Assembly: GCA_017516265.1 (NCBI GenBank) | Contig: JAFXDL010000163.1 | Location: 1-33,824 of the forward strand | DNA: 33,824 nucleotides | Reading direction: 5' to 3' | Origin: Bacteroidaceae bacterium | GTDB taxonomy: Bacteria; Bacteroidota; Bacteroidia; Bacteroidales; Bacteroidaceae | Shown: positions 8,891 to 15,458 of the stretch, one piece after another | Position numbering within the stretch: the stretch's first letter is position 1 | How the letters are laid out: the number at the start of each line of letters is the position of its first letter | Program-made: the position numbers and the translations under genes | The notes under the pieces: model-generated | The model's input: only the letters and a program-made list of their open reading frames with translations | The model's database searches: none | Told to the model about the DNA's origin: nothing

Positions 8891-9616
8891 CTACTGCTCA
8901 TTCTTATTGTTAAACTTATCTCTGAGCAAACAGAAAAAGTGAGAAAGCCCTTCTGTCGATCTTTGCAGTTTTAAAACATTCCTTTTTGTATTTAGAGCAT
9001 AGATGGTATCATTTTGAATTATTCCGCAGTTCATGATACTTTGTACAGGCTCTAAAGCTAAAACTATATTATTCCAACTATCAGAATGTTTCCAACCTAT
9101 TGACAAAACTGTTTCTGAAGCAATATTAAGTAGCGTTATTATTTGCCTAACAAATTCTTCTTGGTTTTCCAAATCGGCATAACTTTCATTACATACATAG
9201 CTATCGGAAAGCTCTATTGTATCACAATTCATATGTTCATCATAAAAAAGAACATTATACTCAGAATTGCTATTCTCTTTGTAAAAAACTCCCCCATAAA
9301 CAGATACGACACTTCTCAGCATAACCATAGCAGAATCAGTTTCAATTCTTACTATCTTGTCTTTAACACTTTCATAACCCAATTTCCCTACATTATTATC
9401 AAATTTTGCATAATACACAATATTGTTATTAAGTGAATCTTTTTGACATATCATCGTATGGCCATCTTCTGTAATAGCTATAACATCTCTATTCTTTTTG
9501 CTAACAACAGTTATATACTGAGAAACCACTTTGATGTATTTTTCTTTCTTTTTATTAGAAGGGGCACATGAAGTAAGAAGAATCAAAGCTAAAAAAAACC
9601 AAAAATATTTTATCAT
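8891..9616 (-). CDS. Lipoprotein of unknown function at the end of the CXXX/Tat operon
   Basis: This is a 241-residue protein with a lipoprotein signal (MIKYFWFFLALILLTSC, Cys17 as lipidation site) followed by a Lys-rich linker. The body is predicted strand-rich (ITVVSKKNRDVIAITEDGHTMICQKDS; YDEHMNCDTIELSDSYVC) and shows no family I recognise. It starts 6 bp after tatC and is certainly in the same transcript, so it is a candidate partner of the exported Cys-rich peptide, for example a binder, immunity or anchoring factor. That role is an inference from position alone. Confidence 0.7.
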   Translation of the reverse strand: MIKYFWFFLALILLTSCAPSNKKKEKYIKVVSQYITVVSKKNRDVIAITEDGHTMICQKDSLNNNIVYYAKFDNNVGKLGYESVKDKIVRIETDSAMVMLRSVVSVYGGVFYKENSNSEYNVLFYDEHMNCDTIELSDSYVCNESYADLENQEEFVRQIITLLNIASETVLSIGWKHSDSWNNIVLALEPVQSIMNCGIIQNDTIYALNTKRNVLKLQRSTEGLSHFFCLLRDKFNNKNEQ

Positions 9617-9622
9617 ATACTC

Positions 9623-10447
9623 TTATTTTTCAACGATTTGTACCACTCTAATACTTACTTCATAAAGCAAATATAGTGGAATAGTAACTAGAATCAATGT
9701 CATCAAGTCGGGGGGCGTAATAATAGCAGCTATTATCATGATTACAATAAACGAATGTCTCCGATACTCCGCAAGCATGGAAGAACTTATTACACCCAAT
9801 TTACCGAGAAAAAAGGCTATAATTGGCAATTGGAATACCACCCCCATAATAAATGTCAATGTCACAAACGTAGAAATATATGAATCAAGCGTAATATTAC
9901 TCACGACCTTTACCGATACGCTATAAGTCCCGAGGAATCGAAATGAAATGGGGAATAGCACGAAATAGGACATTAACACTCCAAGAATGAACAGCAAATA
10001 AATAATGCTAGCAACCTGCACTGAATATTTTCGTTCGTTTTCATAAAGTGCAGGCGATATAAATCGGAACAACTCATATAATATATAAGGTGAAGCTCCA
10101 AGTACTCCTAGATATGCAGCAGTACTCATATGTGTCATAAACTGACTAGAAAGGTCGGTTGCTATCATATCAACATGAAATTCGTTGAAACGAAAGTCTA
10201 TACCGACAGATTGCATAACAATCTCAATCCAACGGTAAGTACAGAAATCCCATTCGCTTGGAGCAAGCAATAACTGCCATGTAAAATCCTTGAAACAGAA
10301 AACAACGATTGTAAATACCCCTACAACAGCCAATATACGAAAGAGCTTTTGGCGGAGCACTTCCAAGTGCCCACCAAAAGTCAACAATTCTAATTCCGAA
10401 TCCTTACTGCTTGGATTCACCTTCTTTGGTTTCTTCATTTTCACCAT
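9623..10447 (-). CDS. tatC: Twin-arginine translocase subunit TatC
   Basis: The frame encodes 274 residues (or 271 from the second Met at 10438). The N-terminal cytoplasmic signature TFGGHLEVLRQKLFRI corresponds to the TatC 'HLxELRxRL' motif. Six hydrophobic segments follow, including YLGVLGASPYILYELFRFISPAL and SYFVLFPISFRFL. TatC binds the twin-arginine motif of signal peptides in the inner membrane. The start overlaps tatA by 44 bp, giving tight coupling. Its place in an operon whose first product has a canonical Tat signal suggests a dedicated export route. Whether the genome has another tatC cannot be seen here. Confidence 0.92.
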   Translation of the reverse strand: MVKMKKPKKVNPSSKDSELELLTFGGHLEVLRQKLFRILAVVGVFTIVVFCFKDFTWQLLLAPSEWDFCTYRWIEIVMQSVGIDFRFNEFHVDMIATDLSSQFMTHMSTAAYLGVLGASPYILYELFRFISPALYENERKYSVQVASIIYLLFILGVLMSYFVLFPISFRFLGTYSVSVKVVSNITLDSYISTFVTLTFIMGVVFQLPIIAFFLGKLGVISSSMLAEYRRHSFIVIMIIAAIITPPDLMTLILVTIPLYLLYEVSIRVVQIVEK

Positions 10448-10634
10448 TTGCTTCCTCGCTATCTTTTTCTGTTATTTCTGCCAAAGGTTCTTTCATTCCT
10501 TTTTTAAAACTCTGCACACCTTGACCAAGACCACGCATCATTTCTGGTAGTTTTTTTCCCCCGAAAAGCAAAAGTGCAAGTCCACCGATAAGCAATAATT
10601 CCGAAGTTCCTATAAACAACAATTGTATAAGCAT
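10404..10634 (-). CDS. tatA: Twin-arginine translocase subunit TatA/E
   Basis: This 76-residue protein has the normal layout. A single N-terminal transmembrane helix (LLFIGTSELLLIGGLALLLF) is followed by the hinge and amphipathic-helix motif FGGKKLPEMMRGLGQGVQSFKKGM, then an acidic tail. TatA oligomers form the export conduit with TatC. There is no separate tatB, as is usual for Bacteroidota. It starts 4 bp after the small CXXX accessory gene and overlaps tatC, so all are one transcript. Confidence 0.93.
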   Translation of the reverse strand: MLIQLLFIGTSELLLIGGLALLLFGGKKLPEMMRGLGQGVQSFKKGMKEPLAEITEKDSEEANGENEETKEGESKQ

Positions 10635-10638
10635 AACT

Positions 10639-10920
10639 TTAATTAGTAACTAAATAAATTTCACATGTCTCAAAATTAATTTGCCAACGGCCATTTTCTG
10701 TAGATTCCCAGTTGTACTTTTCACCTTTTTTATTCCACCAATCTTGAAAAGTAACATTCGTTTCTCCTAAATCGTTTACAACTTTCTCATACAGTTCTAC
10801 ATTGTCCGTAGTTACAATTTTTGCCAAATCTGTTAATCCCAAATGGCGTCTAAATAACTTCTGTATTTCGTCACGCTCTTCTGCTGTAACAATTCCGACT
10901 TTCTTCTTTTTCATATACAA
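10639..10920 (-). CDS. CXXX repeat peptide modification system small protein
   Basis: This is a 93-residue soluble protein (or 91 from MKKKK). The N-terminal half is helical (VTAEERDEIQKLFRRHLGLTDLAKIV). The C-terminal half has a Trp-rich patch FQDWWNKKGEKYNWEST and strands ending QINFETCEIYLVTN. Its length and position between the SPASM protein and tatA fit the small accessory protein I recall being annotated with CXXX-repeat peptide systems. The family name is assigned mainly from context, since no catalytic motif is visible. It abuts the upstream gene with no gap. It could be a precursor-recognition or adaptor protein. Confidence 0.65.
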   Translation of the reverse strand: MYMKKKKVGIVTAEERDEIQKLFRRHLGLTDLAKIVTTDNVELYEKVVNDLGETNVTFQDWWNKKGEKYNWESTENGRWQINFETCEIYLVTN

Positions 10921-11883
10921 TCATATTTTATGCCAATCAATTCTAACATCAAATGGGTCTAGATAATTAATTTCTTTTATATCTTGTTCTGGATAGAACA
11001 CCTTTTCCGTCCTTGTTGCTTCAAGAACTTTACGACTGGCATTTCGTTCCAAATGTGCTAATACGCATTGTTCATGGCTAGGAGTAGTAATATCATACGT
11101 CATTTTACGATTAATCCAGACACAACGTTTACACTGATACGCATCACAAGTTCTGCATAATGGAGCATACGCTAACTTATAAAGTTTTGCAGCCTTTATG
11201 TACAAACCATTCTGCAAATCTCCGACACAAAAAGTTTCCTTATCCTCGTCGTAATAAAAAGCTGGGCAAATATAGAACTTGCCATCAGGAGCCAATGTTA
11301 TATTGCTGGAGCCTGCATTACAATTATTCATCTGGGTTAATGCAATACGGTCTGTTATTACATTCAACTGAGGAGACAAATTTTCTTTGAACAAGCCTTC
11401 AACTTCCTTTCCAAAAGTATCTAATACGGTCTGATACTTAAACATATCGTTTTCTGTAAAGGCTTCTACGTCGGTAATGACTATATTTAATCGTGCGACT
11501 TTACCTATGAAAGTTTTTATAATATCCCTTTGAGCAAACAAATCATCCATGCAAATACGCAAGACATAAGTTGCTTTTGCATCCAAGGTGTAACCAATAA
11601 TATCTTTCCAGTTATTAAATACCACCACATCAGCATCATCCACCAAAGAAGATGTTGATGGAATAATCTTAGAGTGGTCTATTGTCTCTATCACTTCTTT
11701 ATATTCCCTTGGTAAATCACTATCAGAATATACAAACTGAATCATCAAGTTTTCTTTCATGGCAAAACGGATACCAGCTTTAAGATTTACCAAATCAATA
11801 AGACGATGATTTATAGAACTGGATTTATAATGACAATACGACGTACTGGCATCATCTAATAATATTATAAGATATTGTAACAT
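10921..11883 (-). CDS. CXXX repeat peptide maturase (SPASM protein without radical SAM cluster motif)
   Basis: This is a 320-residue protein. The C-terminal half has a SPASM-like Cys set: NNCNAG, then FYICPAFYY, then CRTCDAYQCKRC, then EQCVLAHLER. In a true radical SAM enzyme the N-terminus would carry CxxxCxxC. Here YLIILLDDASTSYCHYKSSS retains only one Cys (residue 17). The middle looks like an alpha/beta barrel. It is therefore probably a catalytically different, SPASM-carrying partner of the radical SAM enzyme encoded 4 bp upstream, perhaps binding auxiliary Fe-S clusters or the peptide. I recall such proteins being named 'CXXX repeat peptide maturase' in annotation; the activity is unproven. 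Confidence 0.75.
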   Translation of the reverse strand: MLQYLIILLDDASTSYCHYKSSSINHRLIDLVNLKAGIRFAMKENLMIQFVYSDSDLPREYKEVIETIDHSKIIPSTSSLVDDADVVVFNNWKDIIGYTLDAKATYVLRICMDDLFAQRDIIKTFIGKVARLNIVITDVEAFTENDMFKYQTVLDTFGKEVEGLFKENLSPQLNVITDRIALTQMNNCNAGSSNITLAPDGKFYICPAFYYDEDKETFCVGDLQNGLYIKAAKLYKLAYAPLCRTCDAYQCKRCVWINRKMTYDITTPSHEQCVLAHLERNASRKVLEATRTEKVFYPEQDIKEINYLDPFDVRIDWHKI

Positions 11884-11887
11884 AATA

Positions 11888-13060
11888 CTAACATGTTTCT
11901 AGATTAGATACAGGACGATTTTCTTCAAACTCTTCTCGTAAACCTTCAAGTTCCAATTTACGATATAGTTTGTTCCAATAATAATTGTTGGCTCTTACTT
12001 GAGCTTTATGCATTTTACAGATAGCAGTAGCACGCTGATATAATGTAGGAATTTCTGCAGCATCATAATTTTCACCTTGACACCAAGCACATCCACTTGC
12101 GACTTCACAGTCAATACACTTTTGAGGACTTTGGGTACAACGGTCGAGTAGAAGAAATGGACGCAGTTTATTCTGATCTATACCTTCGTTTACATTACCT
12201 ATAATCCAAGCCTTTTTGTCACGTAAAGAATACTGAGCAAAACGTGTACAAGGATAGAAATTTCCAGCAGCATCAATGGAAAGCATTCTTCCTGCACCAC
12301 ACCAATTATTATTTCGTTTAATAGGATCTAACGGTTTCCCAAGACTTTCATCAAAGAATGAGCAAACATGGTCTTTATAATAACCATTATCTATTATTTC
12401 GTCGGCTAAAGCTATAACTTGTTCTTCAAAGAGTAAATCATCTCCATCCTTAAAGACATCCTCAAAGACGCAATTTATATGTACATCATGGATACCTAAT
12501 CCATATACATGCATCACGCTTTCCTTTATATAAGGAATATCTTCGCTACTAATTGTTATTTTCGTGCCAACTGTTGGAAATTGTTCCAACCAAAGAGGTA
12601 TATTTTTTACAACATCCTTATATGAACCCTTTCCACTTCCTTTGAAAATGCGGTTTAGATCATGTTTCCTTTCCGTCCCATCTATTGTAATAGCAATACT
12701 CAGATGGTCTTTGTTCTTAGAAATATATTTCTGCAACTTCTTTTGGTGATAATTTAGGCCATTCGTGGTAAAGGAGAAAGTGTAATCATTAAACCAATGA
12801 TGGTTACGAGTAAACATTTCCTCTTTCAAATAGTCACATATTTTGTCTATCAAGTCTATCTCCAAAAATGGTTCTCCACCAATAAAATCCCATATGACAC
12901 CTTCGTCTTGAAAATAGTCTTCATGGCTAAGGATATAATCAATAGCTTTCTTGGCTATATCCCACGACATTCTCTCTTTATTGTTTTTCCCAATGAGGTA
13001 ACAATATTTGCAAGCTAATTGACAATCCTTCGTAACTATAAATGTTATTGTTTTTCTCAT
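11888..13060 (-). CDS. Radical SAM/SPASM peptide maturase, CXXX-repeat target family
   Basis: This is a 390-residue protein. The radical SAM cluster motif is intact: Cys13, Cys17, Cys20 in CQLACKYCY. It is followed by the SAM-binding IGGEPFLE (about 65-72) and FTTNGLN (about 97-103). The C-terminal SPASM domain has WCGAG, FYPCTRF, then CTQSPQKCIDCEVASGCAWC and AICKMH, enough Cys for two auxiliary 4Fe-4S clusters. Enzymes of this layout install thioether or other crosslinks on Cys-rich precursor peptides (sactipeptide/ranthipeptide-type chemistry). The Cys-every-four-residues precursor immediately upstream is the evident substrate. The gap between precursor and enzyme holds a hairpin. Confidence 0.92.
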   Translation of the reverse strand: MRKTITFIVTKDCQLACKYCYLIGKNNKERMSWDIAKKAIDYILSHEDYFQDEGVIWDFIGGEPFLEIDLIDKICDYLKEEMFTRNHHWFNDYTFSFTTNGLNYHQKKLQKYISKNKDHLSIAITIDGTERKHDLNRIFKGSGKGSYKDVVKNIPLWLEQFPTVGTKITISSEDIPYIKESVMHVYGLGIHDVHINCVFEDVFKDGDDLLFEEQVIALADEIIDNGYYKDHVCSFFDESLGKPLDPIKRNNNWCGAGRMLSIDAAGNFYPCTRFAQYSLRDKKAWIIGNVNEGIDQNKLRPFLLLDRCTQSPQKCIDCEVASGCAWCQGENYDAAEIPTLYQRATAICKMHKAQVRANNYYWNKLYRKLELEGLREEFEENRPVSNLETC

Positions 13061-13077
13061 TTCTGCTGTGTTTTAAA

Positions 13078-13110
13078 AGAGGGTATGTCCCAATAATCAA
13101 CATACCCTCT
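13078..13110 (-). terminator. Intercistronic hairpin between precursor and maturase (partial terminator)
   Basis: An 11-bp perfect stem (agagggtatgt 13078-13088 / acatacccctct-type arm at 13100-13110) with an 11-base loop. It is followed on the minus strand by TTTTAAAA just before the radical SAM gene. The short U-run suggests incomplete termination or RNA-end protection, which would give more precursor mRNA than enzyme mRNA. Confidence 0.65.
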
Positions 13111-13123
13111 ACAAAATAAAAGT

Positions 13124-13402
13124 TTAACTCTTGTACTTCGATTCACAATAAGCCCAGCAGTCACCACCGCACAAACTATCACAATTGTTGGTGCAACCAC
13201 CGTCGCAATCACCAGAACATGATGATGAGCAACCACCAGTACATTTGGTTCCGCAACCTTTTTCTTTTTCGTCTTCTTCACAAGATGTTAAAAAAGAAGA
13301 GCCTAACACAGTAAACGCCAAGATAGGTAAAGCACCTTTAGCGGCATTCTTAAAGAACTCTCTTCGAGATTGGAGTTCTTCATTCTTTTTTGTCTGCTTC
13401 AT
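13124..13402 (-). CDS. CXXX-repeat radical SAM target peptide with Tat and lipoprotein signals
   Basis: This is a 92-residue precursor. Residues 12-18 are a canonical twin-arginine motif (SRREFFK). A hydrophobic stretch (KGALPILAFTVLGSSFLTSC) follows, ending in a lipobox with Cys41. After an acidic spacer, ten Cys occur at residues 50, 54, 58, 62, 66, 70, 74, 78, 82 and 86, exactly every fourth residue, with small or acidic residues between them (G, T, S, D, N). This identifies it as the CXXX-repeat substrate of the radical SAM enzyme downstream. It should be modified in the cytoplasm, folded by its crosslinks, then exported by Tat and possibly lipid-anchored. The mature function is unknown. 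Confidence 0.92.
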   Translation of the reverse strand: MKQTKKNEELQSRREFFKNAAKGALPILAFTVLGSSFLTSCEEDEKEKGCGTKCTGGCSSSCSGDCDGGCTNNCDSLCGGDCWAYCESKYKS

Positions 13403-13469
13403 AACGTTAGAAGTCTTTATGTTGCTTCCTAACTCCCCAATTCAGCATGATTACTATTAAGTTCCAGGA

Positions 13470-13870
13470 AATAAAAAAGACGCGGGAGTTGGTTCCTACG
13501 CACCTATCCCTATACTCAGGCTCTCGCATTGCCTCTTCCTAAGGATAAGCAACGCAAGCCAGCCCGCGCCGAGTTATATTATAATTCAACACAGGCCATT
13601 AACCATCAATATAAATGACAGCAACGAACTGATAGGATATAATACACCCACGCGAACGCTTCGTTGCATTACCGCTGTAGGAAGATCAAATTTGCGAGAT
13701 TTGAGTATACAGACAGTAACGTTCAGAAAACGTCCTTTCACCTTTGGCTGTCCTTACAAACGGGGTTCACAACCTCAGGATTCCATCAATGTTTATTTTG
13801 ACTCTTTCTGTCTTCATTGTCATTAGCCATTACTGACCACTAACAACTCGGACATATATAGTCAATGGCA
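13470..13870 (-). ncRNA. Candidate structured RNA or leader upstream of the CXXX operon
   Basis: There is no long reading frame on either strand, but multiple hairpins occur. An outer stem (gcgcggg / cccgcgt, 13563-13569 with 13480-13486) encloses a 10-bp hairpin (13549-13558 with 13523-13532) and is followed by TCTTTTTTAT, so the 3' end looks like an intrinsic terminator near 13473. Further stems: 13729-13733 with 13719-13723, inside 13748-13753 with 13711-13716; 13687-13703; 13655-13665. Several pairs are G-U on the minus strand but A-C on the plus strand, which fixes the orientation. A 14-codon ORF (MANDNEDRKSQNKH, 13830-13786) lies near the 5' end. It is not RNase P RNA, tmRNA or SRP RNA by their signatures. 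It could be a stand-alone sRNA or an attenuator leader, since no consensus promoter lies between its U-tract and the precursor gene. Confidence 0.6.
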
Positions 13871-14478
13871 AAATTACATAAAAACATTCAATTTACCAGT
13901 GTTTAATATAAAAAAAAGCAAATTTTATACATTTTTAGCAAATGTTTTTGATGGAAAAGTTGATTAGAGGTACATAGACACACAAAAAGAGTGAAGAATC
14001 TGAGAAGACAAACTCCCCTCTGCTCGTTTTCGTGTGTCGAATGTTGGTTATATTCAAAAAGAGAAGAGAACAAGAGCTAAAAGCTCATAATCCATATTTC
14101 AAGTTTCGGACAGACAGACGTTTCTCTTGCCTCAGTTAAGATTATAATTGTTGGGACAAAGATACAACTTAATTATGAATTATTTCACAGAATATGTTGC
14201 AAAACACAAATTCAAGTACAATTTACCTGTTCTGTGAAAAATGAAGAATGAAGTCGTTCCCTTCAATTTCCCCAGAAGGGGGGAAGAACTGTAATGAGAC
14301 GGTGAGGGGCAAAGTTTAAGAGGCATTTATGTGTCAGACGTTGAATAGTTACAATGCTTACATATGCCGTTAATTATCAAGAATATAAAAGGACTTCTAT
14401 TTGTATCTAAAAGCAATAACTTACGGCTTGGCTACTACAACTTTGCTATTTTTGTCGTGTTGTAAATGGGGGGTAGTT
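13871..14478. other. Gene-free region upstream of the structured RNA
   Basis: AT-rich, with no credible coding frame. It holds a minus-strand TATCTTTG at 14157-14164 and a short GC-rich palindromic patch around 14266-14284 (ttccccagaaggggggaa). That patch resembles dispersed CCCC...GGGG repeats, one of which appears to have entered the coding sequence near 16370. Nothing else is recognisable. Confidence 0.5.
14157..14164 (-). promoter_or_regulatory. Possible -7 element driving the leader of the CXXX operon
   Basis: TATCTTTG on the minus strand, followed by GTCCCAACAATTATAATC. If used, the transcript would run through the structured element into the precursor gene, giving a leader of about 750 nt. 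A poorer candidate, TATATATG (about 13853-13860), lies right at the 5' end of the structured element. No -33 TTTG at standard spacing for either. Confidence 0.35.
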
Positions 14479-14479
14479 T

Positions 14480-14638
14480 CAATCAGTGCTTCATAAAGGT
14501 CTAACGAAGCACTGATTGAGCACCTAACGAAGCACTGATTGAGCACCTAACGAAGCACTGATTGAGCACCTAATGAAGCACTGATTGAGAAGCTAATAAA
14601 GTACTGATTGAAAAGCTGATGAAGCACTGATTGGATAG
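14480..14638. repeat. 23-bp tandem array (six units) preceded by one inverted copy
   Basis: Units begin at 14501, 14524, 14547, 14570, 14593 and 14616, each 23 bp with core gaagcactgattga; the last three units are progressively diverged. An inverted copy of the core (caatcagtgcttc) is at 14480-14492, giving a 13-14-bp hairpin with the first unit. There are no spacers of unique sequence, so this is not a CRISPR array. Confidence 0.9.
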
Positions 14639-15000
14639 ACGGGGTTCTCTATTCTCTTCTTACAGCTCAGGTTACATACAAATATTATCGATGGACAAAC
14701 AGGTTTTGTTTGCTTTCTTCTGTTTATCCTGTAAAGAATCATGAATTTTGAACCGTTCATCAAATAGTCCAAAGTAAGTGTTTGTGCAGGTCCTTATAGA
14801 TTTGTAGATGTTTGTACTTGATTGAAAACCAGTTTTGTATAAGCGTAATGCAAGAAGTCGCGTATTTTCAATCAAACAGAAGTCTCGTCCCAAATACAGG
14901 ATTCTCAGAGGCTCTTTTTTGCATATTTATGCAGTGATTGTATATTTATACATTTTGTCTCGTCTCCCATAAGCCTGAAAAACAGACTCTTTTCACCACT

Positions 15001-15133
15001 TGTGCACAACCGCTTCCCTCCGTGTGAACAAGTGTCGCGCCGAATGTTCACAACCTATAGGAGTGGCTGTGCACAACCGCAGAAGCGAGTGTTCACACGG
15101 ACAATAGCGGTTGTGCACACGGCCGTTTGCATT
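15001..15133. repeat. 22-bp-phased TGTKMACA repeat, six units
   Basis: Eight-base cores start at 15001 (tgtgcaca), 15023 (tgtgaaca), 15045 (tgttcaca), 15068 (tgtgcaca), 15090 (tgttcaca) and 15112 (tgtgcaca): intervals of 22, 22, 23, 22, 22. Each core is a full or near palindrome, and the bases between are largely diverged. The regular spacing of about two helical turns could present protein-binding sites on one face of the DNA, or it may be an old 22-bp tandem repeat. A 93-codon minus-strand frame across it has no family features and is not annotated as a gene. Confidence 0.8.
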
Positions 15134-15266
15134 GAAAACAGGAGGAATCCCATGTTTGCATAAATAGACAGAGAATGCCCTCTTATGGGAGGGTGCAAGA
15201 TTTACGGAATGAGGAAATCTACAGATGCAGGATTTGTTACTTTGGATTGTTGTTTTTGTTGATGAT

Positions 15267-15439
15267 AGGTTCAAGGTTCAAAGTTCAAGGTTCAAAAGCC
15301 ATTCGGCACTGATTTTTAGAACACGGAGACACAGAGAATTTCTCTTCAATTAAAATTAAAACTCTGTGTCTTTGTGTCTCTGTGTTCTAATCAAATAGGA
15401 TATACACTTTAAACCTTAAACCTTGAACTTTGAACCTTT
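15267..15439. repeat. Nested inverted repeats (GGTTCAAAG outer arms, ACACAGAG inner arms)
   Basis: The outer arms are aggttcaaagttcaaggtt-like (15267-15296, itself a short tandem repeat of ggttcaa) and aaccttgaactttgaacc (about 15418-15436). The inner arms are agaacacggagacacagag (15318-15336) and its inverse complement tctttgtgtctctgtgttct (15369-15388), the third copy of the dispersed element seen at 1444 and 4064. It lies just downstream of the glycan cassette and may serve as its transcription end. Confidence 0.75.
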
Positions 15440-15458
15440 CGCCTTGCACTTGCGACTA

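Follow-up and report, generated by a model that had tools for sequence, protein, structure and literature searches.

The operon and its precursor peptide

The window, i.e. the whole stretch of 33,824 nucleotides analyzed here (contig JAFXDL010000163.1 of GenBank assembly GCA_017516265.1, from a Bacteroidaceae bacterium), carries between positions 8891 and 13402 seven tightly spaced open reading frames (ORFs), all on the minus strand (Table 1), which encode a precursor peptide with CXXX repeats, a radical S-adenosylmethionine (SAM)/SPASM maturase, a second SPASM protein, a small accessory protein, the TatA and TatC components of a twin-arginine translocation (Tat) system and a predicted lipoprotein. 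The same coordinates and spacings had been given in an earlier note made from the sequence alone, and all of the ORFs were found in place; the gaps after the first maturase gene are 4, 0 (with a TTG start of the accessory gene; 6 with the ATG start), 4, -44 and 6 bp. Five of the genes, encoding the radical SAM maturase, the SPASM protein, the accessory protein, TatA/E and TatC, exceed the curated cut-offs of NCBIfam. The remark of that note that the families are known by name from annotation also holds, as TIGR04115, TIGR04119 and TIGR04116 are over their cut-offs and TIGR04117 is slightly under.

The leader of the precursor reads MKQTKKNEELQSRREFFKNAAKGALPILAFTVLGSSFLTSC followed by EEDEKE, and thus comprises twin arginines (RR), a hydrophobic stretch, a lipobox and acidic residues. 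The first three of these, the lipobox being the signal peptidase site, are the features of a Tat substrate as far as pattern reading goes, and the precursor is predicted to be a Tat lipoprotein (SRREFFK...LTSC, then EEDEKE), a point missed in the earlier note. The Tat signal model TIGR01409, for which no match of the window precursor at E <= 1 was listed, is too insensitive to serve as a precursor detector. The earlier note had made its proposal depend on a twin-arginine motif in the exported peptide, and the motif is kept among relatives, where it precedes the repeat in 141 of 148 ORFs picked by their Cys repeats alone. Among the seven exceptions, the leader of L025 is truly different and the arginines of L076 are out of register, while the rest resemble cut or internal ORFs; all ORFs were started at the first start codon after a stop, so that the N-terminus is overextended or truncated in some of them.

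Conservation of the leader is high near the arginines, and in most relatives a hydrophobic stretch and then a lipobox or an AxA site follow them. By a loose pattern, the leader ends of 140 RR precursors are lipobox-like in 53 cases, AxA-like in 71 and neither in 16. A strict lipobox pattern is found in 36 of the 140, 28 of which have at least two acidic residues at positions +2 to +6 and 11 of which match C-X-K-(D/E)2, the optimal form of the signal for lipoprotein export in Capnocytophaga (PMC5080379). This signal is matched by the nearest kin (L026 and L027); the EEDEKE of the window precursor is acidic but does not match. It is plausible that the window peptide is displayed at the cell surface.

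For the core, a Cys spacing of four predominates in the precursors of relatives, which have 7 to 73 Cys and are present in several copies at many loci. Across 2277 CXXXC repeats, the usual residues are Ser, Lys or Thr at X1, Gly at X2 and Ser, Gly or Thr at X3, with Asp accounting for 4.5, 5.4 and 3.8% of the three positions, respectively. The number of Cys shows no bias to even values (64 even and 76 odd in 140 precursors, p 0.35), and pairing of the cysteines in disulfides is thus unsupported. The precursor with 73 Cys is a protein of 346 aa (L047:8908-9948), and in another (L029:8675-9925) a globular stretch without a Pfam family lies between two CXXX stretches.

Table 1. Features of the operon in window coordinates
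Feature	Position	Strand	Basis
Precursor P0001, CXXX-repeat, 92 aa	13124..13402	-	TIGR04117 45.1 bits, cut-off 50
Twin-arginine codons R13 R14, leader SRREFFK	13361..13366	-	read from sequence
Lipobox cysteine C41 (LTSC), predicted lipidation site	13280..13282	-	pattern reading
Core, ten Cys, every fourth residue, C50 to C86	13127..13255	-	translation
Radical SAM/SPASM peptide maturase P0002	11888..13060	-	TIGR04115 614.1 bits, cut-off 350
Pseudo-radical-SAM/SPASM partner P0003, without SAM-cluster motif	10921..11883	-	TIGR04119 226.5 bits, cut-off 150
Small accessory protein P0004	10639..10914 (ATG) or 10920 (TTG)	-	TIGR04116 93.2 bits, cut-off 50
TatA P0005	10404..10634	-	TIGR01411 57.0 bits, PF02416 49.1 bits
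TatC P0006, cassette-linked lineage	9623..10447	-	TIGR00945 165.1 bits; tree
Lipoprotein P0007, predicted	8891..9616	-	family matches sub-threshold only

Tat genes in related cassettes

The maturase family TIGR04115 was identified in 12 of 393 genomes of an order sample and, at E <= 1e-40, in 9 of 395 genomes of a phylum sample, six of the nine being over the cut-off. The best 80 of 404 relatives among the GTDB representatives were used as well, so that the frequencies given here concern near relatives. With 11 loci from the order sample outside the window's genome, and with three duplicates (L016, L019 and L049) removed from the counts, 88 distinct loci were available, in which the prevailing order is precursor(s)-rSAM-SPASM-accessory-tatA-tatC. 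The cassette includes tatC in 69 of the 88; 12 lack it despite sufficient room, and seven, at contig ends or with too little room, were set aside. The earlier note had named absence of neighboring tatAC from most homologous loci as the observation that would speak against it, and the reverse was found: of the 81 loci that could be scored, 69 have tatC inside the cassette. As gene order is conserved in most relatives, the Tat linkage is more than chance. In a maturase tree one large group takes in most of the Tat-linked loci, and tatC was seemingly lost several times inside this group, with the rooting uncertain; this tree and the TatC tree below were built quickly, without bootstrap, and contain the long branches of L024, L025, L312 and L247.

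The cassette TatCs are, by their sequences, a lineage separate from ordinary TatC. In a tree of 140 TatCs, the 75 linked rows require 4 label changes, compared with a mean of 46.6 after shuffling and no value as low in 500 shuffles. Six rows were relabelled as linked, five of which adjoin CXXX genes, whereas the sixth (L251) sits at the end of its contig and is presumably the continuation of L033. The window's TatC falls within starred sets of 10, 14 and 44 rows, all linked, and the other TatC of its genome is located elsewhere in the tree. The linked TatCs do not form one clade, as the TatC of L024 is distant (on a long branch of unsure placement), and tatC recruitment may therefore have occurred more than once; in addition, the TatC of L027 is placed apart from those of its maturase kin.

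A second tatC in the genome, for which the earlier note had advised a check, does exist: the window's genome encodes two full-length TatCs, the second of them on contig C25 together with its tatA. The ordinary TatAC of this genome (L001, L254) belong to the same protein families as the linked pair; ordinary TatAC of Bacteroidales form a separate lineage without adjoining CXXX genes, and in three genomes (G151, G173 and G349) they are located near genes of aldo/keto reductases with RR signals. Another contig of the window's genome, C130, carries RR-signal ferredoxin and aldo/keto reductase genes in an order that, by eye, resembles the surroundings of the ordinary TatC in G173, and contigs C130 and C25 may adjoin in the genome.

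Two full-length TatCs are present in 6 of 12 cassette genomes of the order sample versus 10 of its 381 other genomes (p 1.3e-6), as read by eye from a table in which TatC fragments (G045, G047, G105, G181, G190, G327 and G353) were excluded from the count of second copies. A wider search covered 50 cassette genomes, namely the 12 of the order sample together with the genomes behind 38 of the 80 loci, which were hand-picked with deliberate inclusion of Tat-less loci. All 50 have TatC, versus 329 of 393 in the order sample. Assigned to classes by hand, 23 of them contain both kinds of TatC, 12 a Tat-less cassette with ordinary TatC and 15 the linked TatC only, so that another TatC is lacking from 15 of the 38 genomes whose cassette is Tat-linked. 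TIGR01409 exceeds its cut-off in 20 of 23, 11 of 12 and 4 of 15 genomes of these classes, respectively; ordinary Tat signals are thus rarer where ordinary TatC is missing (4/15 vs 31/35, p 3.3e-5). In the controls, both genomes of the same family with TatC had matches. Some weak TIGR01409 matches are themselves CXXX precursors, such as G427:C22:62278 inside the precursor of L260.

These figures bear on the possibility that the peptide is exported by Tat but that no Tat is dedicated to it, the neighboring tatAC being co-inherited and serving all clients and the ordinary Tat serving the peptide as well. Eleven of the 12 loci without tatC have RR precursors, and all 12 searched genomes with a Tat-less cassette have TatC elsewhere, where the ordinary Tat presumably suffices, so that linkage is not obligatory; furthermore, 4 of the 15 genomes with linked TatC only carry ordinary Tat signals. 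Such sharing nevertheless appears unlikely, given the separate lineage of the linked TatCs, the excess of second TatCs among cassette genomes and the scarcity of ordinary clients where the linked TatC alone exists.

At the other end of the operon, the terminal lipoprotein gene, counted as an operon member in the earlier note, proved to lie outside the conserved cassette. Among the 91 loci surveyed, a relative of it was found in two, L026 and L028, which are nearest kin of the window operon, and for this reason P0007 is probably a passenger and was rejected as a part of the machinery. The operon has a G+C content of 34.9%, compared with 43.6% in the left and 51.0% in the right flank, which hints at, and by no means proves, a gain by transfer. 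The approximately 2 kb upstream of it (13403-15458) contain no convincing gene, with a G+C content of 38.5% over 13403-15400. Across the surveyed loci, no conserved flanking immunity, regulator or protease gene was found. A small outer-membrane-barrel-like gene precedes the precursors in a minority of loci (L044, L052, L060, L078, L090, L093 and L102; in L090 it matches PF13505 at 28.4 bits, just below the cut-off), as does a large lipoprotein gene in another minority (L056, L081, L092, L097 and L099, the last with Big_2 domains), and either may encode a partner of the system.

Leader type, maturation and proposed export route

The exporter type follows the leader type, as read from gene content and leader sequences. 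Five cellular loci have CXXX precursors without RR (L025, L306, L307, L308 and L312); in each, tatC is missing and an ATP-binding cassette (ABC) exporter is encoded at most 1.2 kb from the maturase gene. Among 91 loci with RR precursors, tatC is present in 71 and an ABC gene within 4 kb in one, at a distance of 3.7 kb. Left out of the five were L063, L075 and L259, which are RR-less with tatC and lie at contig starts, and L309-L311, which are under the TIGR04115 cut-off and in which no CXXX precursor was found. In L025 (5076-10588), a fused rSAM-SPASM protein, an ABC exporter, a QhpE-like protease (111 bits, cut-off 165) and a precursor without twin arginines are encoded together, and this locus may be an evolutionary bridge to quinohemoprotein-type maturation. 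L312 belongs to the conjugative plasmid pAPRE01 of Anaerococcus prevotii (NC_013164.1), which carries a CXXX maturase gene and an ABC exporter; its short peptide has four Cys in CXXX spacing, was under the length limit of the script and was read separately. Carriage on plasmids was otherwise rejected, PLSDB having a single such record, from Anaerococcus and without Tat. The CXXX maturase gene of L312 adjoins class III lanthipeptide genes.

It could be argued that the RR stretch is a recognition site of the maturase only, with export by Sec or another route and tatAC as a chance neighbor, and the strong conservation of the leader around the arginines is what would be expected of a recognition site. 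This appears very improbable, since the five RR-less loci share the maturase families and have no tatC, since most precursors continue after the arginines with a hydrophobic stretch and either a lipobox or an AxA site, and since tatC is linked even where the TatC is a distant one (L024).

For viral sequences, 42 loci of the family (L106-L147) were identified on phage-labelled contigs of IMG/VR; none of the 42 has tatC, and no ABC gene was found in the 41 whose maturase was recovered. Several of these loci, e.g. L111, L113, L114 and L118, have CXXX-repeat ORFs nearby, without Tat-type leaders, and distant relatives occur in large Erwinia phages too. A complete Tat-linked cassette with a maturase identity of 74% is found in a GenBank record from human faeces labelled "Bacteriophage sp." and UNVERIFIED (L314, MT837480.1), which is probably a mislabelled bacterial fragment.

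Regarding the enzymes, P0002 has a CX3CX2C motif and seven Cys in the SPASM region, all invariant across 12 homologues, and its profile matches PDB entry 5wgg (E 1.5e-31), which we take to be the thioether-forming maturase CteB, the entry title mentioning thioether bond formation. The confident structural model of P0003 (pLDDT 90.7) comprises a degenerate radical SAM barrel and a SPASM domain and is nearest to 5why/5wgg (5wgg at E 2.1e-9, TM 0.66); the seven SPASM Cys are invariant in 61 homologues, and the SAM-cluster motif is absent. TIGR04115 and TIGR04119 form a single polypeptide in L025 and L312, which is good evidence that they act together, and the radical SAM/SPASM enzyme and its pseudo-radical-SAM partner probably form one maturase. 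The model of P0004 is also confident (pLDDT 94.7), with a strand, two helices and two strands, and has no PDB match at E <= 0.001; a role as RiPP (ribosomally synthesized and post-translationally modified peptide) recognition element is therefore unsupported. P0002 scores 197.5 bits against the PapB model NF047865 (cut-off 340) and 105.8 bits against TIGR03906 (cut-off 453). PapB-type CX3D chemistry was rejected, as Asp makes up approximately 4-5% of each X position and the residue after XXX is the next Cys; the Cys-Asp rule is not transferable because Asp is scarce at X1-X3. By analogy with the nearest enzymes, the core modification is most likely a set of Cys thioether crosslinks.

The Cys repeats might instead bind a metal or an Fe-S cluster, with Tat used for a metal-folded peptide and the radical SAM enzyme performing some other modification. 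Tat often carries cofactor-containing proteins out of the cytoplasm, and the absence of a Cys parity bias is compatible with metal and thioethers alike. Cys-rich copper-binding RiPP families do exist (bufferins, PMC12452194). This alternative seems rather improbable, as the closest match of both P0002 and P0003 is a thioether-forming maturase and no metal-handling gene is conserved beside the cassette among the surveyed flanks.

Taken together, the operon is likely a radical SAM RiPP cassette with dedicated Tat export, whose product would be membrane-anchored, as in the window, or soluble. The earlier note had proposed that the peptide is modified in the cytoplasm, folded by its crosslinks and exported folded, and this order of events is supported; the chemistry of the crosslinks, the export itself, the display at the surface and the role of the peptide are inferred. 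In this scheme the maturase pair, assisted by the accessory protein, would modify the core with its Cys at every fourth residue in the cytoplasm, and thioether crosslinks would turn it into a compact chain unsuited to Sec. The twin-arginine leader would then bring the finished peptide to the co-encoded TatA and TatC, and not to the ordinary TatAC of the genome, for which there is strong comparative support, while the ordinary TatAC would serve its own Fe-S clients. After cleavage by signal peptidase II at the lipobox, the peptide would stay lipidated on the membrane and may be exposed on the cell surface, and relatives with an AxA-type end may be released by signal peptidase I. A leader protease and an ABC exporter would thus be dispensable, unlike in those relatives whose leader has no twin arginines. 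Paralogous cores and long arrays suggest that the peptide, displayed or secreted, has a structural or interaction role and is not an enzyme. The broader proposition, of a RiPP class exported already modified through its own Tat translocon, in which TatAC replaces the protease and ABC exporter of sister cassettes and the window lipopeptide is possibly surface-displayed, is in our judgment evenly balanced.

Besides the Tat-less loci with RR precursors and the ordinary Tat signals in genomes with linked TatC only, several further points weigh against dedicated Tat export of a crosslinked peptide. Two loci with RR precursors (L304 and L305) have no tatC and no ABC gene in the vicinity. One of four TatC-less control genomes has a TIGR01409 match over the cut-off, in a frame containing a stop, so the model is noisy. 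The genomes compared are related and many are draft assemblies, and as ordinary TatC and its clients can be neighbors, both disappear when one contig is missing. A function of the RR region as maturase recognition site is also conceivable, and the crosslinks are deduced solely from distant enzyme kin.

For the Sec channel, crosslinked peptides are bulky substrates, and comparable known systems rely on ABC exporters. If dedicated Tat export is correct, nature would already have solved the export of crosslinked peptides by pairing a radical SAM maturase with a Tat of its own; the cassette would also offer a handle on how Tat judges a small substrate to be finished, and would mean that two specialized Tat systems exist within one cell. 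In gut Bacteroidales, lipidated peptides with cysteine repeats would moreover emerge as a class that is still unexplored.

Comparison with known systems

Of the four families of the CXXX-repeat radical SAM system of NCBIfam, three are represented over cut-off in the window operon, and the precursor comes close to the fourth, TIGR04117, with ten Cys that are clearly arranged in CXXX repeats; what is added here to that annotation is the linkage to TatAC, the lipobox and the distinct lineage of the TatC. No paper was found for TIGR04115, TIGR04116, TIGR04117 or TIGR04119 in a search that covered little of the subscription literature and none of the NCBI family notes, nor for 'CXXX repeat' joined with 'radical SAM'. 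Among the papers listed by searches combining RiPP or radical SAM with Tat, no such system was seen, although a remark on Tat may exist in the NCBI family notes. The terms TatC, twin-arginine, CXXX, TIGR04115 and lipoprotein do not occur in the accessible part of a survey of Bacteroidales RiPPs (PMC10352776). Tat was considered for the display of lanthipeptides, where preliminary attempts by the authors reportedly failed (PMC5686179).

Maturation of the gamma subunit of quinohemoprotein amine dehydrogenase (QHNDH; QhpC, QhpD, QhpE and QhpF) resembles the proposed pathway in that a crosslinked polypeptide made by a radical SAM enzyme leaves the cytoplasm, and the sub-threshold match of P0002 to TIGR03906 is a further point of likeness. 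In the QHNDH pathway, QhpE cuts the leader off and an ABC transporter moves the crosslinked chain (PMC7876137). Neither a QhpE protease nor an ABC exporter is among the seven genes of the window operon, which, unlike QHNDH, would use Tat, with signal peptidase presumably cutting the leader; it is L025 that has the QHNDH layout of protease and ABC exporter. Ranthipeptides of the PapB (freyrasin) type have repeated Cys motifs in common with the window cassette, and PapB links Cys to Asp or Glu in CX3D/E (PMC9413430); the window maturase differs from these in scoring under the PapB cut-off, and its precursor in having no Cys-X3-Asp/Glu core.

In the DAG-RiPPs, the RiPP precursor has a lipobox and, following its modification in the cytosol, is predicted to receive a lipid; the word Tat is absent from the part of the text that was available (PMC12636315). 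The window precursor likewise has a lipobox pattern (LTSC, C41) and adjoins its maturase, whereas the DAG-RiPP enzymes are MNIO enzymes and those of the window are radical SAM proteins; lipidation is predicted here as well. The product of the window operon would thus be a radical SAM, Tat-routed kind of RiPP-lipoprotein hybrid.

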